Below the pieces are notes generated by a model. The model was not told the origin of the DNA, did not search any database, and was given only the letters and a program-made list of their open reading frames with translations. The translations under genes were made by a program, and so were the position numbers. A stretch of DNA of 43,474 nucleotides from a virus. The stretch spans positions 1-43,474 of the IMG/VR virus record IMGVR_UViG_3300034198_009761. The stretch is one strand, 5' to 3'. This document shows positions 34,674-43,474 of this stretch, in pieces; position 1 is the first letter of the stretch, and each line of letters starts with the position of its first letter.

Positions 34674-35891
34674 TTACGCAACAGCGCTGCTAAGGAAATA
34701 CCCCAAGTCCGGAGCAACAACCTTCATGTCATAAGTCATTTCAGCCTCAATACGGTCCGAAGCAATGTTCTCCATACGGAACCGCTTCACCTTGATGCCC
34801 TGACCGTTACCACCAAGATATCCGTTCCACGTAAACGTATAACCGGCAGAAGGAGTCATCAGCGACGGACCCGAAGGAGCATACGCAAACAGCACAGACT
34901 TCGAGTTCGAAATGAAATCGAAACCGACAGTACCAAACGTCAACGTACCCGAAGAAATCGCAGCCGAAGTGTTAGCCGACAGAGTAACCGAAGTACCCGA
35001 AACGGCAGCAACGGTAGTACCCGCGGCAACACCAGTACCCGAAACCGGAGTACCAACAATGATACGAGTATCAGCAGCACCAAGAGTCACCGCAGTAGAA
35101 CCCGAAGACGCCGAACCAACCGCAGTAAACACAGTGTTCACAGAAGCCTGAACACCAGCATCCGGGAACTGAGCAGGCGAACCGAAATCAGTAGCACCAG
35201 ACACACCCGCAGCAGTCGCATACGACGTGTACAGTTCATCCACATCAAACAGAGTCGCAATCAGATCCTCCGTAACAATACCCTTCTGGGTGTACTTGAT
35301 ACGGTCAATAATGTCCGGGTGCTGCTTCAAACCCTTCATAACATCCGCGCCAAGAACGCAAATGTTCGGCTTAAAACCAGTCAACTTACGAAACGCCACA
35401 ACAATGTCAGCAACATCGCTAATCGGATCCGAACCAGCGTCAGACCACTTCACAAAGTCAGTGGTACCAACCTTGTCAGTAGCCCAGACGCCAGTCTTGA
35501 AATAAGCAGCGTTCCAGTCAATATCACGCTGAAGCAGCAACTGGTTCGTAATGAACTCAGTAGCATCCCGATCAAGGTTGAAGTTCGAATCAGCGTTCGC
35601 GCGCAACTGGTCATCAATATCCTTGTGGATACCGTACACATGCGCGAAATACTGATCCGTGGTCAGGTTCCAACCAGAACCCGGAGTCTCAGTACCAGGA
35701 GCACGACGCTTAGCGTCAGTACGACGCCAATCCGCCTTGCTGTACTTCCAGTACAGATCAGACTGCTTAGAAACAGGGACCTTGGGGAAAACCTTATCCG
35801 CAAGGTAGGTCGATGCCGACTGAAGATACGCAATGCTGACGTTAGTTAACGGAGCATTGACGTGAAGGTCGGACTGAGCGGGACTGGGCAT
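34674..35891 (-). CDS. major capsid protein with inserted beta module
   Basis: The product has 405 residues. The start has AAGGA about seven bases upstream. N-terminal to middle segments (ADKVFPKVPVSKQSDLYWKY, IHKDIDDQLRANADSNFNLD) and the C-terminal RFRMENIASDRIEAEMTYDM are typical of HK97-fold major capsid proteins of this actinophage type. Residues 257-321 are an extra Gly/Ser/Thr/Val-rich module nearly matching one in the major tail protein and probably exposed on the capsid surface. Flanking genes (decoration and scaffold upstream, PKD protein downstream) support the call. Confidence 0.9.
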   Translation of the reverse strand: MPSPAQSDLHVNAPLTNVSIAYLQSASTYLADKVFPKVPVSKQSDLYWKYSKADWRRTDAKRRAPGTETPGSGWNLTTDQYFAHVYGIHKDIDDQLRANADSNFNLDRDATEFITNQLLLQRDIDWNAAYFKTGVWATDKVGTTDFVKWSDAGSDPISDVADIVVAFRKLTGFKPNICVLGADVMKGLKQHPDIIDRIKYTQKGIVTEDLIATLFDVDELYTSYATAAGVSGATDFGSPAQFPDAGVQASVNTVFTAVGSASSGSTAVTLGAADTRIIVGTPVSGTGVAAGTTVAAVSGTSVTLSANTSAAISSGTLTFGTVGFDFISNSKSVLFAYAPSGPSLMTPSAGYTFTWNGYLGGNGQGIKVKRFRMENIASDRIEAEMTYDMKVVAPDLGYFLSSAVA

Positions 35892-38653: not shown

Positions 38654-38913
38654 CCCAACATCTCCAACGGCGAATACGCCAAACCACGAGCACCAACAAA
38701 AGCGTAAGCATTCCGAGACCCCTGGCGACGCTCAGCCCGCGAAAGCTTACGACCCATCAACGCAGCACCGTTATCAAGCATGATCCGGCTAGACGCAAAC
38801 ATCGCCAACGGCGAAACAGGATCCGAAGACACACGACTCGACGGAATACCAATCGACGGCATAATCAAATCATCCGGCATACGCCCATAAGAACGAGGCT
38901 CAAACAAAGCCAT
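38650..38913 (-). CDS. small hypothetical head-module protein
   Basis: The 87-residue product overlaps both neighbours (TAATG upstream, ATGA downstream). It has no transmembrane segment. The C-terminal half is basic (RKLSRAERRQGSRNAYAF). It lies between the protease and the 408-residue glycine-zipper protein, so a minor structural role is likely. Family not recognised. Confidence 0.6.
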   Translation of the reverse strand: MALFEPRSYGRMPDDLIMPSIGIPSSRVSSDPVSPLAMFASSRIMLDNGAALMGRKLSRAERRQGSRNAYAFVGARGLAYSPLEMLG

Positions 38914-39644
38914 TAGATTTCAGCCTCAACACGCTTACCGCGACCATGAACACTAAACCCAGTCTTACGACCAGCCTTAATATCAGCCCACGTATCCCCC
39001 TCCTCATACTGGTAACCAACCCACCAGCCACGAGGAGTATCCGCAGGCAACCCCATCTTCTCAATCTTCTCATCAGTCACAACAAAAGACTCAATCATCT
39101 CGCCAGCCTTCACAGCATTACCAAACTCATCACGCTTATGCTGCGTACCACCAACACGAGACTTTTGAACATACGTATACGCCGCACGCTCCAACTCGTC
39201 CGGAGTAATCCAATCACCCTGCAAATCAACCACAGGCTGACCATCAACCTCCACAACAGAAGCCCACCCAAAAGCCTGACGCTTATCCGAATCAAGCTTA
39301 GAAAACTCGCCACTCCACACCACGTCATACGACTTCACAACAGTCCCCGAAGACACAGGAGACGCAGGCTTCTTCGCCATCGGCGCTGGCTGAGGCGCAG
39401 TCTTCACCGCGGCAGGCTTCGGCATCGGCGGCTTCGGAACCAAAACACCACGCGAAGGCTTACTCACACCAGTCGGCACAGAAACATCAGACGGAGCAGG
39501 ACTCATCTTCGACACAGCATCCCGGTCATACAAATAAGACCACACGTCAGCACTATCCACCGTCGGACCAAACAACGTGTCACACAGTGCAACAAAATTA
39601 GGATCCACCTCGTAAAGAGACTTCACCACACGACGCGAATCCAT
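38913..39644 (-). CDS. capsid maturation protease (XkdF-like)
   Basis: The product has 243 residues from the ATG at 39644, which has GGAGG five bases upstream; the GTG at 39656 is less likely. After a Pro-rich linker (about residues 60-100) the C-terminal domain runs from VVWSGEFSKLDSDKRQAFGW through GDWITPDELERAAYTYV, GEMIESFVVTDEKI and PRGWWVGYQYE to KTGFSVHGRG. This order fits XkdF-type putative serine proteases that mature the capsid. The scaffold-like protein is encoded two genes downstream. The N-terminal 60 residues are unique. Confidence 0.82.
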   Translation of the reverse strand: MDSRRVVKSLYEVDPNFVALCDTLFGPTVDSADVWSYLYDRDAVSKMSPAPSDVSVPTGVSKPSRGVLVPKPPMPKPAAVKTAPQPAPMAKKPASPVSSGTVVKSYDVVWSGEFSKLDSDKRQAFGWASVVEVDGQPVVDLQGDWITPDELERAAYTYVQKSRVGGTQHKRDEFGNAVKAGEMIESFVVTDEKIEKMGLPADTPRGWWVGYQYEEGDTWADIKAGRKTGFSVHGRGKRVEAEI

Positions 39645-39707
39645 ACAAACCTCCACCTAGGGCTAGTCTTATCATCCCGCACAAAAGTAACAGACGCCAC
39701 CAAGGAA

Positions 39708-42074
39708 TCAGTATTCCCCGGGCAGACTTACCGTCACCAAACGGATAGGAACGTTACCAATATCCCCCAACTCACGCCGCGACATAGTAAACGCCTCCGC
39801 CAATGACTCCTTCGCAAATGGACTTTCGTGAATTGCTATACGAACGTCCTTGTTAGTCCGAAACGCCTTCAACGCGGCGTCAGAACCGGTAACAAAAACC
39901 GGGGGATCTCCGGGGTCGTAAGCAACCCGTACGGCTACAACTTTCCCGTCCACAGAATCAACACGTACACCGCTGCTCAAAGCAGTGTACGGAGATTCCA
40001 TGCGTTCGCGGGCGTAATGATCCTCTTGAATTTCTACAGCACGATCCTGCACTTGTGCAAGGCTTCCGGAATCTGCCGAAACACGCTGTTCAAACAAAAC
40101 CTCGCCTTCTGATCCATTACCGACGCTAATGTAGTTGTGCATTAGATTAGAAAAACGCGTCAACGGGCTGTCCTCAAAAACATACCCAGGATCTTTCATG
40201 CGAGCAGTGAACGTAGCCCCAAGAACCCTATCTAGGTCGTTTACAGCAAGGCTGGTACGTGAATCTTCACCCGCAAGCATGTCCATGAAATGGGCAGACG
40301 ACATCTGGTAACCCTTAGCTTTGCCATAATCAAGCCTCTCAAAAACTTGCGTAGACGGTTGAGGCGTTGCGGCAGTCTTTCGACGCGCAGGACGTTTCGG
40401 TGTGCCCGCAGACGCCACAGCAGGTTTAATTACAGTCTCAACAGGAATAGCATGCTCGCGAACAGCATGTTCCCTAACCGCATGCTCCCTAACGGCATGT
40501 TCGCGAACAGCATGCCGAGGCTGAAAAGCCTCCCGGCTTTTAGCAGGTAACAGCGCAGACAAATCAGTCAACGTAGGAGAAACCTTTTTCTCCTGCCGAG
40601 CGACAGGCCGATTAGCTCGCTCCAAACGAGCGAGACGCTCTAACCGCGGATCCACGTCAGCAAACTTCCCATCCGCGTCCCGCTCAACATTGACCATCCG
40701 CAACTTGCCATCCACACGCCACTGCTCGCGCGACTTACCAAGCTCCTCACCGTCGTACGTAAAACGCCACTGCTGAGGAACCAAAGCATAGTGTCCAACA
40801 GGAGTATCTCTGCCAGAAAACATCACAGGATCCGGATTGCTGTCCTGAAAAGAAAAACGCGCCTGATTCGGAACAGAGAAACCTTCACCATCAGTGCCGC
40901 CATCATAAATCGGCACAGCGCCCGAAATGATCAACATTCCCATAGGCTCACCGCTTTCCATCATCAAGTTAGACCACGCACCCGAGTCGCTCTCAACAAT
41001 CCTACGATCAGAAAAATACAACTCGGTGGCTAACTGATTCTCAATAAGCAAACGCTTCACGTCACCAGCAGTAAAACCATCCTTCTCAAACTGCTGCAAC
41101 AGTCGAATAGGGACATAAGCGATGTGATCCTTCACGTCATGCGCGACATGAAAAGGCTGCTCAACAATCTTCGCTTTAAGCTCCCTCTGCGTAACAGCCC
41201 TAGGAAGCTTACTTAAAGATGGAGTTTTCCTAGCCTTCGGCTCTTTCGGTTTAGCAACATCAGGCTTAGCGTGCTCACGAACAGCATGCTCTCGCTTAGC
41301 ATGTTCCCTTGTTGCGTGTTCGCGAACAGCGTTCGGTCGCTGTTCAGCCTTTAGATCAAACAAAGACATCAAATCAGACAGCGCAGGTTTCTTATCCTCA
41401 CGCTTCATAGGAACGGCATTAGAACGCTGCAACCGCTCTAAACGAGCAAGCCGTTCAACATCCTCAGCAGAACGACCAGGCTTCACCGCAAACTTACCTT
41501 CAGGATCCCTCCGATGATCTTCCTCACGGAAACGAACAGCCTTCGACACTTCCGCGCTCGACTCTCGAGCACCCACATATGAAGCAAAATCCATCAAAGA
41601 ACGATCAGCCGCATCAACACGCACCACAGGAGACACCACAGGAGCCTTCACAGCATTCACATACGAACCAACACGCTTCGCAGGAACGCCCACCACATCA
41701 GCAGCACGCTCCACCGCAAAAGGCATCGGAACACCCGCAGAAGACCACACAGTCAACACATGAGAAACACCCTCAACAGCATCCTGATGAATCTGCGACG
41801 CCAACAACCGACCATACTCGCTCGAAGCATCACCCATCACCGGCTCAACAGCCGCAGACAACGCCTTCGCAACGGGAGAAAAATCGGCGCTATTCAACGC
41901 GTCAACGACATCAGCCGCATCAACCAGCGAACGACCCGTCAAACCACCCAACGCCGACTTCGCAAGCGCGTGATACCCCAACACAGCCGAACCCACACCC
42001 TGCACCACGTCACGGCCATCAATACCAGCCAGAACAACGCGAGCCGCGCCCTCATCATCCCACCAGCGGTCCAT
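39708..42074 (-). CDS. MuF-position protein with duplicated module and REHA repeats
   Basis: The product has 788 residues from the ATG at 42074, with GAGGG seven bases upstream; numbering below follows the frame from 42080. Residues 1-185 are helical and Ala/Val-rich, like minor head proteins beside the portal. Two copies of a module follow (189-272 and 466-545): each has a RDxxGKFA-type motif, an ERLARLER helix, a short LxDLxxL helix and four REHA pentapeptides. The first copy is followed by an unknown globular domain (285-465), the second by another (575-790). It may be a packaged multi-domain protein. No toxin motif is recognised. Confidence 0.6.
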   Translation of the reverse strand: MDRWWDDEGAARVVLAGIDGRDVVQGVGSAVLGYHALAKSALGGLTGRSLVDAADVVDALNSADFSPVAKALSAAVEPVMGDASSEYGRLLASQIHQDAVEGVSHVLTVWSSAGVPMPFAVERAADVVGVPAKRVGSYVNAVKAPVVSPVVRVDAADRSLMDFASYVGARESSAEVSKAVRFREEDHRRDPEGKFAVKPGRSAEDVERLARLERLQRSNAVPMKREDKKPALSDLMSLFDLKAEQRPNAVREHATREHAKREHAVREHAKPDVAKPKEPKARKTPSLSKLPRAVTQRELKAKIVEQPFHVAHDVKDHIAYVPIRLLQQFEKDGFTAGDVKRLLIENQLATELYFSDRRIVESDSGAWSNLMMESGEPMGMLIISGAVPIYDGGTDGEGFSVPNQARFSFQDSNPDPVMFSGRDTPVGHYALVPQQWRFTYDGEELGKSREQWRVDGKLRMVNVERDADGKFADVDPRLERLARLERANRPVARQEKKVSPTLTDLSALLPAKSREAFQPRHAVREHAVREHAVREHAVREHAIPVETVIKPAVASAGTPKRPARRKTAATPQPSTQVFERLDYGKAKGYQMSSAHFMDMLAGEDSRTSLAVNDLDRVLGATFTARMKDPGYVFEDSPLTRFSNLMHNYISVGNGSEGEVLFEQRVSADSGSLAQVQDRAVEIQEDHYARERMESPYTALSSGVRVDSVDGKVVAVRVAYDPGDPPVFVTGSDAALKAFRTNKDVRIAIHESPFAKESLAEAFTMSRRELGDIGNVPIRLVTVSLPGEY
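40449..40517 (-). repeat. REHA repeat block 2
   Basis: The block consists of four tandem 15-bp units encoding Ala-Val-Arg-Glu-His-Ala with a period of five residues, at the end of the second module of the 788-residue protein. The units are similar but not identical at the DNA level. Confidence 0.8.
41268..41333 (-). repeat. REHA repeat block 1
   Basis: The block consists of four tandem 15-bp units encoding REHA with Val, Thr, Lys or Val before each, at the end of the first module of the 788-residue protein. It is more diverged than block 2. Confidence 0.8.
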
Positions 42075-42097
42075 CAACAACCCTCACATAGACAAAA

Positions 42098-42922
42098 CTA
42101 TGCGTTCACATTAGCAGCACGCAGACGCTGAGCCCGATACTGAGCAACACCCAACTCAACATCCTCCGCCGTAATACGCGTCAAATCAGCGTCCTCAGCA
42201 TTAGCAACCCGGCGCACATGCGCCTGCCTAATCGCCTGAACAATGTTGCGGGCATTACGAGCATTACCCTCACCCAACTCACTCACCGCAGAACCAACCA
42301 ACTCCGCAGCCCGCTTATCAAGCTTGTAATCACCCTTCTTGAAAAACAGCCCAGCAATCTTCGTCAAATCCTTAGACGAATAATCAGGGAACTCAATGCT
42401 GGTAGTGAACCGCGACTCCAAGCCCGGGTTCGTCGCAAGAAACTCACCCATCTGCTTCGGATAACCAGCAAGAATAACCACCGTGTCATCACGATGGTTC
42501 TCCATCAACTCAAGCAACGTATCCACAGCCTGACGGCCATACATATCATCCTTGCCCTGAACAAGCGCATACGCCTCGTCAATAAACAACACGCCACCAC
42601 GAGCCTTATCAAACTGCTCCTGCACCAGCGTCTGAGTCTCACCCAGATGCGTACCAATCAACTCCGACTTCTTCGGCGCAACAAACTTATCCGAAGGAAC
42701 CAAACCAAGAGCCTTATACAATGGAGCAATAGAACGAGCAATCTCCGTCTTACCCGTACCCGGATTACCCACAAAAATCATGTGCTTAGTGTCCTGCTCA
42801 ACAGGCAAACCTTCCGCCTCACGACGACGGTTATACACACTCGTCGCAATCAGCGTATTCACCTGCTGCTTCACCTTCGACATACCAATCATCGAACCAA
42901 TGCCGGAAACAATCTCCGTCAC
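42098..42922 (-). CDS. CbxX/EccA-type AAA+ ATPase
   Basis: The product has 274 residues from the GTG at 42922. Walker A is GNPGTGKT (52-59), Walker B VLFIDEAY (111-118), sensor 1 is in ILAGYP, the arginine finger is in LESRF (Arg171), and sensor 2 is GNARNARN. The SMIGMSKVKQQV start and overall form match the CbxX/CfqX/EccA clade, hexameric remodelling ATPases. The GTG has no ribosome site and no other start exists upstream. The frame stays open for 50 further codons back to a slip site in the preceding gene, so the likely main product is a fusion. An ATPase of this type inside a phage head operon is unusual. Confidence 0.85.
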   Translation of the reverse strand: MTEIVSGIGSMIGMSKVKQQVNTLIATSVYNRRREAEGLPVEQDTKHMIFVGNPGTGKTEIARSIAPLYKALGLVPSDKFVAPKKSELIGTHLGETQTLVQEQFDKARGGVLFIDEAYALVQGKDDMYGRQAVDTLLELMENHRDDTVVILAGYPKQMGEFLATNPGLESRFTTSIEFPDYSSKDLTKIAGLFFKKGDYKLDKRAAELVGSAVSELGEGNARNARNIVQAIRQAHVRRVANAEDADLTRITAEDVELGVAQYRAQRLRAANVNA

Positions 42923-42957
42923 CTTGTCGTAATCAATATCAGAAAGATCCGGCTCCC

Positions 42958-43474
42958 CTACACCAGAGGAAGACCCACCGCTTTCCGCAACATCACGTCC
43001 ACCGAGCGCGGGTGATCCCGCGGCAACACGCGCACCCGTCGGGACGAGAGCCCCTTCGCGAGGGGCTGCACTTTTGGGGAACCACCCCCCGCAGGATCCA
43101 TCACATCAATCACTTCACGCACGCGCTTCAAAGCACGCGCCTGCTGAAACAGCAACGCCTGAGCAGCAACAGCAGACGGCTCAAAATCAGACGGACCCGG
43201 ATTATTCTTACCCGTCAAAAGTTGCAAACCCTCCGGAGGGATCCCGGACATTTGAGCCATCTTCGGCAAAAGACTAGCCGGGTTGCTCACAACCTCAGAG
43301 CGCGCCTTCTCCCATGCGTCAGGCAAACCCTTCAACGCAGTAAAAAGAGACTCAGTATCAGAAGGCACCGGAAGAAGAGCAATAGCCCTACCCGGACCAG
43401 CCTCAAACGCATTCAACTGCGCACGGTTAGTAATACCAACAAGATTACTCGTCAACTGCGGCTTAGCCCCCATA
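42958..43474 (-). CDS. C-terminal part of a head protein, portal by position (runs off the window)
   Basis: At least 171 residues are visible, and the gene may extend past the window edge. It is helical, with segments such as SNLVGITNRAQLNAFEAGPG, LPKMAQMSGIPPEGLQLLTG and AAQALLFQQARALKRVREVI. Position before the AAA+, MuF-position and protease genes is where the portal is expected, but I cannot confirm the portal fold from this fragment. In frame it ends at 42958 with a basic 37-residue tail after a slippery site. A -1 slip would replace that tail by a linker and the AAA+ ATPase. Confidence 0.5.
   Translation of the reverse strand, partial: MGAKPQLTSNLVGITNRAQLNAFEAGPGRAIALLPVPSDTESLFTALKGLPDAWEKARSEVVSNPASLLPKMAQMSGIPPEGLQLLTGKNNPGPSDFEPSAVAAQALLFQQARALKRVREVIDVMDPAGGGSPKVQPLAKGLSSRRVRVLPRDHPRSVDVMLRKAVGLPLV
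43049..43078 (-). promoter_or_regulatory. -1 programmed frameshift signal (heptamer plus stem-loop)
   Basis: Minus-strand codons read TCC CCA AAA GTG, giving C CCA AAA, a canonical slippery heptamer at 43072-43078. Four bases later a perfect 7-base-pair stem (43061-43067 with 43049-43055) with a CGCGA loop follows. A G-rich SD-like stretch precedes the heptamer. The -1 frame is closed by TGA codons until about a dozen codons before the heptamer. It is then open through a 50-residue linker into the AAA+ ATPase to 42098. Confidence 0.8.

Follow-up and report, generated by a model that had tools for sequence, protein, structure and literature searches.

A conserved signal for programmed -1 frameshifting predicted to fuse an AAA+ ATPase to a protein encoded between the portal and prohead protease genes of uncultured tailed phages

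Results

Gene order around the p1103/ATPase junction

The window, by which we mean the whole analysed stretch of 43,474 nt from IMG/VR record IMGVR_UViG_3300034198_009761, ends within a long minus-strand gene that we refer to as p1103 (Table 1). The complete gene is present in IMGVR_UViG_3300032327_000488 (L003; 55,441 nt), where it begins with a GTG and encodes 1,103 aa (L003:3205-6516). This contig is 100% identical to the window over the overlaps checked. The window has the same start and junction coordinates and appears to be an abbreviated form of this contig; given the same start coordinate and full identity, the second contig may not be independent evidence.

In L003, p1103 is preceded by a portal gene (Portal_Mu, E-value of 3.8e-7; phrog_113, E-value of 3.7e-28) and a 904-aa ORF (p904). 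The order of portal, p904, p1103, ATPase, p790 and protease recurs wherever the flanks of relatives are readable. A first-pass annotation made from the sequence had described p1103 as a portal-position protein that might act at the portal vertex. This description fails, as the portal is encoded two genes upstream, outside the window, and p1103 has no family match in Pfam, PHROG or NCBIfam.

Three diverged p1103 queries matched no isolated phage in the phage collection searched. Neither a model of the full protein (pLDDT 60) nor one of its core (pLDDT 85) had a match in the PDB, while a comparison of the core model with BFVD returned one clear relative and some weak matches, among them two phage proteins named as minor capsid proteins. 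From the weak hits, we considered a catalytically dead JAMM/MPN-like core, with an invariant R-T-R at the place of HxH, and rejected it for want of profile support. With no known family or solved structure matching p1103, gene order is the basis for its proposed virion location and role.

The p904 ORF (L003:494-3208) has no match in Pfam or NCBIfam; by eye, its stretch FHGTTLANARSIKREGF resembles the start of an ADP-ribosyltransferase. A short motif resembling H-P-R-[DG]-x-x-G-[RK]-F is common to p904, p1103 and p790 and is possibly a common targeting or packaging signal. The p790 protein also carries runs of a five-residue repeat (VREHA), and the major capsid protein of the window is longer than its 336-aa relatives by roughly 70-90 residues (about 229-318). 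Capsid relatives occur in Arthrobacter and Microbacterium phages, among others.

Table 1. Features of the p1103 locus and its surroundings (window coordinates unless prefixed L003)
Feature	Position	Strand	Basis or remark
p1103, C-terminal 171 codons (0 frame), cut by window end	42958..43473	minus	ORF list
Slippery heptamer C_CCA_AAA (CCCAAAA), candidate -1 ribosomal frameshift site	43078-43072	minus	Direct reading
Probable stimulatory stem-loop, AGCCCCU/AGGGGCU, loop CGCGA	43067-43049	minus	Sequence and folding energy
Predicted -1 extension, 324 codons (SAAPREG... to ...NVNA), linker and AAA+ ATPase	42101..43072	minus	Translation, homologous -1 frames
Putative dual-coding overlap of 0-frame tail (37 aa, ...RRVRVLPRDHPRSVDVMLRKAVGLPLV) and -1 linker	42961..43071	minus	Conserved motifs
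AAA domain (PF00004), Walker A GNPGTGKT, Walker B LFIDEA	42386..42781	minus	Pfam E-value 4.2e-17
AAA lid (PF17866 AAA_lid_6)	42158..42271	minus	Pfam E-value 5.2e-07
p790, next gene of the module	39708..42080	minus	Adjoins ATPase in relatives too (synteny)
XkdF-type prohead protease (Peptidase_S78_2)	38913..39656	minus	Pfam E-value 3.9e-18
Major capsid protein (phrog_1005)	34674..35891	minus	PHROG E-value 1.3e-84
Tail assembly chaperone candidate	about 30230-29484		Just upstream of tape measure
H-P-R-[DG]-x-x-G-[RK]-F-like motif sites	L003:2513, L003:3544; 41516, 40685	window sites minus	

A slippery heptamer and a hairpin at the junction

Read on the minus strand, the upstream frame is ...GGT TCC CCA AAA GTG CAG..., which places CCCAAAA in phase as C_CCA_AAA. 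A 4-nt spacer (GTGC) separates the heptamer from a perfect 7-bp stem. The hairpin has a folding energy of -11.5 to -12.1 kcal/mol (-12.1 with flanks), a stability matched at just 0.4% of the control sites within p1103. The 0 frame stops at TAG 42960-42958. The -1 frame is closed by TGA 43108 and is open thereafter until TAG 42100-42098, and the first ATG, GTG or TTG of this open stretch is GTG 42922, which is without a ribosome site. It begins with a linker of ~50 aa, rich in Gly, Ser, Pro and Ala, that precedes the AAA+ ATPase. The first-pass annotation had pointed to the heptamer in the upstream frame, the perfect stem-loop four bases after it, the -1 frame closed just upstream and then open into the ATPase, and the lack of an earlier start; direct reading of the minus strand bears out each of these.

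The heptamer by itself is not rare, as CCCAAAA occurs 10 times in the window against 8.0 expected. It is the in-phase conservation in homologues, the strong codon bias against the heptamer and the local hairpin that set the signal beyond chance. No match to the region was found in Rfam. An internal Shine-Dalgarno sequence was considered as a second stimulator and set aside: AGGTG/GGAGG-like stretches lie 11-19 nt upstream of the heptamer in only about half of the members, and the window has none.

Homologues of p1103 among environmental viral contigs

The closest relative, G002, came from a profile search with the ATPase: this 70,410-nt contig opens with an ATPase fragment that is 66% identical. 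Since this contig has a 123-nt terminal repeat, it is effectively circular, and at its other end lies a p1103 of 44-47% identity that runs into the ATPase in the -1 frame. The slip region is TTCCCCAAAAGT in both the window and G002; their hairpins are of unlike sequence and both lie 4 nt downstream of the heptamer (-12.1 and -12.3 kcal/mol, respectively).

Further homologues were found by scanning for two amino-acid motifs, EFDPNFRGA and GGQ[YF]VRTR, which yielded some 30 more viral loci, all on IMG/VR contigs. The p1103 homologues are a previously unlisted family in environmental viral contigs, belonging to widespread, uncultured tailed phages. A two-sequence profile search of bacterial genomes found nothing, and none of the 74 pattern matches from a motif search of genome contigs was a relative of p1103. 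Two contigs from different assemblies, IMGVR 3300027749_000047 (135,953 nt) and 3300028392_000043 (105,652 nt), each contain two diverged copies of the head module, about 84% identical in p1103 and with capsid genes 67-69 kb apart. These contigs represent a heterodimer of related phages, tandem prophages or an assembly chimera.

Conservation of the heptamer and the hairpin

Every reachable junction was read, and in 25 distinct members the 3' region of p1103 is readable. For this count, near-copies were grouped (L043 with L041, L066 with L068 and L051 with L071), and L052 was included though its contig ends soon after the heptamer. An in-phase heptamer is present in 23 of the 25, as C_CCA_AAA in 22 and as G_GGA_AAA in one (L060); the remaining two, L058 and L069, have neither a slippery heptamer nor the ATPase. 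The heptamer persists where p1103 identity to the window has fallen to 23-25%, and the base that follows it is G in all heptamer members.

The codons at this site run against the preferences of the genomes. In the window, CCA accounts for 1 of 52 Pro codons and AAA for 2 of 45 Lys codons, and in L018/L056 for 0 of 61 and 0 of 31, respectively. The residue before Pro-Lys is variable (S, A, P, D, G, F or L), but every CCCAAAA member uses a C-ending codon for it; only 8% of window codons are of this type. Multiplied over 17 CCCAAAA representatives of <80% identity, the probability of the codon choice given Pro-Lys is 10^-40.5, an index of constraint rather than a p-value because the lineages are related and Pro-Lys is presumed. 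Judged by its codons, the slip site is conserved beyond what the protein would need.

For each of 18 representatives, we took the stablest hairpin that begins 4-9 nt beyond the heptamer and compared it with those at 250 codon-phased sites in the same gene. In 15 of them, it ranks within about the top 6% of these control sites by stability (Fisher p 3e-15). Stability is no better than expected in L056, L047 and L065, and L148 has only a weak hairpin. A simple count of perfect stems of at least 5 bp (17/26, against a background of 31%) is weaker and points in the same direction. The stems differ in sequence, with 14 different 5' arms. A structure a few nt downstream of the heptamer presumably serves as the stimulator.

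The heptamer, its phase and its conservation in homologues support the programmed -1 frameshift signal proposed in the first-pass annotation, which had suggested searching relatives for loss of the heptamer by synonymous changes and for an independent ribosome site of the ATPase. The heptamer is not lost in this way, no ribosome site for the ATPase is shared across the family, and the stem and the open -1 frame recur.

The AAA+ ATPase in the -1 frame

The ATPase of the window has intact Walker motifs and an intact lid, and by its sequence is a member of the CbxX/CfqX AAA+ family. Its NCBIfam matches are EccA (E-value of 1.9e-67), SpoVK (5.5e-67) and CbbX (1.7e-56), and the nearest solved structures are of EccA1 and CbbX (PDB 9lur, 3zuh and 3syk). 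We rejected orthology to EccA, SpoVK or CbbX, as the scores are far under the curated equivalog cut-offs (228/467, 226/423 and 192/459, respectively). There is no Ig-like domain in the window extension, whose strong matches are to AAA/P-loop-type families only. At the pore-loop position, the window has HLG where several relatives have YVG.

All 17 AAA+ lineages encode the ATPase in the -1 frame, after a linker of ~50-70 open codons, and no AAA+ member has a stop in this frame between the heptamer and the AAA domain. In the window and its nearest relatives, by contrast, the upstream part of this frame has 51-81 stops per 500 codons. The joint chance of the open linkers is ~10^-30, a value driven by the AT-richer members since the high-GC members are uninformative. 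Neither an in-frame fusion nor a free-standing ATPase was seen at the p1103 locus among the homologues. A 633-aa AAA+ ORF of Adler was discarded as an in-frame precedent; it sits in an apparent type VII secretion locus and has no similarity to p1103. These observations support the predicted fusion of p1103 to a CbxX-type AAA+ ATPase through a flexible linker, as first proposed from the window.

The unshifted tail and alternative extensions

The tail that p1103 would have without a shift is about 30-70 aa long and often conserved. Of 25 tails that were read, near-copies among them, 18 carry a motif resembling RVxVLxxxHPLSxxVxxRxxxGLPLV. Within this overlap, close relatives also conserve LVPTG in the -1 frame. 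Both products therefore look selected, which suggests selection on the short as well as the long form.

Seventeen lineages, among them the most diverged (L017/L046 and L018/L056), have the CbxX-type AAA+ extension. Five members keep the slip site with another -1 extension: a non-AAA extension of 191-298 aa in L047, L060, L063 and L147, and one of only 60 aa in L148. The L047 and L060 extensions are homologous to each other (E-value of about 5e-5). Codon-position base composition indicates -1 coding past the 0-frame stop in these two and, less sharply, in L063. In all three, the next gene begins directly after the extension, for which no Pfam match was found.

In a tree of the p1103 core, the five non-AAA+ members group with L149, which has the AAA+ extension, and with L058 and L069; AAA+ members make up the remainder and occur in both of the deepest parts of the tree. 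The simplest reading of this tree, whose root is uncertain from long branches, is that the AAA+ extension was ancestral, was later replaced and was once lost.

Alternative explanations

The change of frame could arise from a sequencing or assembly error or from a decayed gene, as a GGGGGG run lies just upstream of the window heptamer and the identical second contig may not be independent. This is already refuted by the homologues, as the same -1 relation and heptamer occur in >20 diverged members from many assemblies and both frames of the overlap are conserved; we regard its probability as negligible. Slippage of the RNA polymerase instead of the ribosome is conceivable at a partly homopolymeric site (4 C and 4 A). 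These runs are too short compared with known slippage sites of about 8 or more A or T (PMC3711429), and the X_XXY_YYZ phase and downstream hairpins are ribosomal signatures, which makes polymerase slippage highly improbable. A little less remote, though still improbable, is that the ATPase is a separate gene, started at GTG 42922, at ATG 42892/42883 or by re-initiation, with the heptamer incidental. In its favour, the window has a GTG 38 nt past the stop of the 0 frame, and conservation is fairly good for the downstream ATGs in the SMIGM segment. Against this, the candidate starts are without a Shine-Dalgarno sequence in nearly all members, the window GTG (42920..42922, minus strand) is GTC in G002, and a separate gene needs neither ~50-70 open upstream -1 codons nor an in-phase heptamer maintained against codon bias. 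A conserved programmed -1 ribosomal frameshift at the p1103/ATPase junction is thus the reading that the sequences very strongly favour.

A different alternative accepts the frameshift and questions its setting: the long form may have its function inside the infected cell, such as an effect on a host target or a part in replication, with the head-module position incidental. CbxX-type ATPases elsewhere serve metabolism, sporulation and secretion, and p1103 has no sequence match among known virion proteins. On the other side, the position between portal and protease is conserved wherever flanks are readable, and the weak fold matches of the modelled p1103 core include two phage 'minor capsid' proteins. 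We consider a role in the infected cell possible but doubtful. Overall, the best explanation, to which we assign a probability of roughly 0.87, is a frameshift-made p1103-AAA+ fusion, most likely acting in head assembly or an internal head complex.

Discussion

In the mechanism that we propose, most ribosomes would complete p1103, of about 1,100 aa and with its own conserved tail. A fraction would slip from C_CCA_AAA to CCC_AAA, presumably aided by the hairpin 4 nt downstream, and read the -1 linker into the CbxX/EccA/SpoVK-type AAA+ ATPase, giving a p1103-AAA+ protein of ~1,390 aa. This product would be the minority form. Long and short forms may co-assemble through their common p1103 part, and the AAA+ part, probably a hexamer, may remodel a partner in the structure made of p1103. 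The place of the p1103 gene between the portal and prohead protease genes makes a head assembly or internal head complex the most likely identity of that structure, and p1103 would be an assembly or internal head protein. Taken by itself, a head or assembly role of the fusion is a tentative assignment to which we give slightly less than even odds.

Phage frameshifts are known in tail chaperones and in coat or tail proteins with Ig-like extensions (PMC5009743), and cellular frameshifts in the AAA+ genes dnaX and magnesium chelatase (PMC3711429, PMC5009743). As in the lambda-type G/G-T system, where a -1 slip leaves a minority of the copies of an assembly protein with a C-terminal extension (PMC5009743), the p1103 slip would extend a protein at its C-terminus. 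In contrast to G/G-T, p1103 lies in the portal-protease part and not directly upstream of the tape measure, the proteins are others, and the extension is an enzyme; this location led us to reject p1103 as the G/G-T tail assembly chaperone. The likely chaperone gene of the window has an in-phase -1 heptamer of its own (C_CCT_TTC, 29842-29836, minus strand). Besides the p1103 slip, the phage therefore probably uses a second -1 frameshift.

In T3, A2 and the Listeria phages A118, A500 and PSA, frameshifting likewise adds an optional domain to a protein of the structural module (PMC5009743). Their extensions are Ig-like or similar passive domains, whereas that of p1103 is an AAA+ ATPase and its carrier is no known coat or tail protein. 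Bacterial and archaeal magnesium-chelatase genes and dnaX resemble the p1103 locus in that frameshifting occurs in genes encoding AAA+ proteins (PMC3711429, PMC5009743), but these are cellular genes with A_AAA_AAR sites that put no motor on a phage protein, and the dnaX shift yields a shorter product. EccA, SpoVK and CbbX are of the same ATPase family; unlike them, the ATPase of the window is predicted to be produced by frameshifting as a C-terminal domain instead of as a protein of its own. We found no report of a phage frameshift that adds an AAA+ ATPase in the open-licence literature. As far as these sources show, -1 frameshifting is a known phenomenon and its use for AAA+ addition is new.

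The exchange of extensions at a retained heptamer raises the possibility, which we consider rather unlikely as a whole, that the slip site is an evolutionary docking slot. The frameshift would set the ratio of bare to extended p1103 and the extension, usually AAA+ but another module in one subclade, would be exchangeable, with the AAA+ form adding an ATP-driven remodelling ring at controlled copy number to the assembling or infecting particle.

The phages that carry p1103 form a broad family with no isolate in the phage collection searched. Known phage frameshifts add chaperone or passive surface domains, while that of p1103 appears to set the dose of an ATP-driven AAA+ machine joined to a large head-module protein. 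If virions or proheads contain the product, phage assembly or entry would have an energy-driven remodeler in addition to the terminase, and the fusion would be one whose stoichiometry is controlled naturally.
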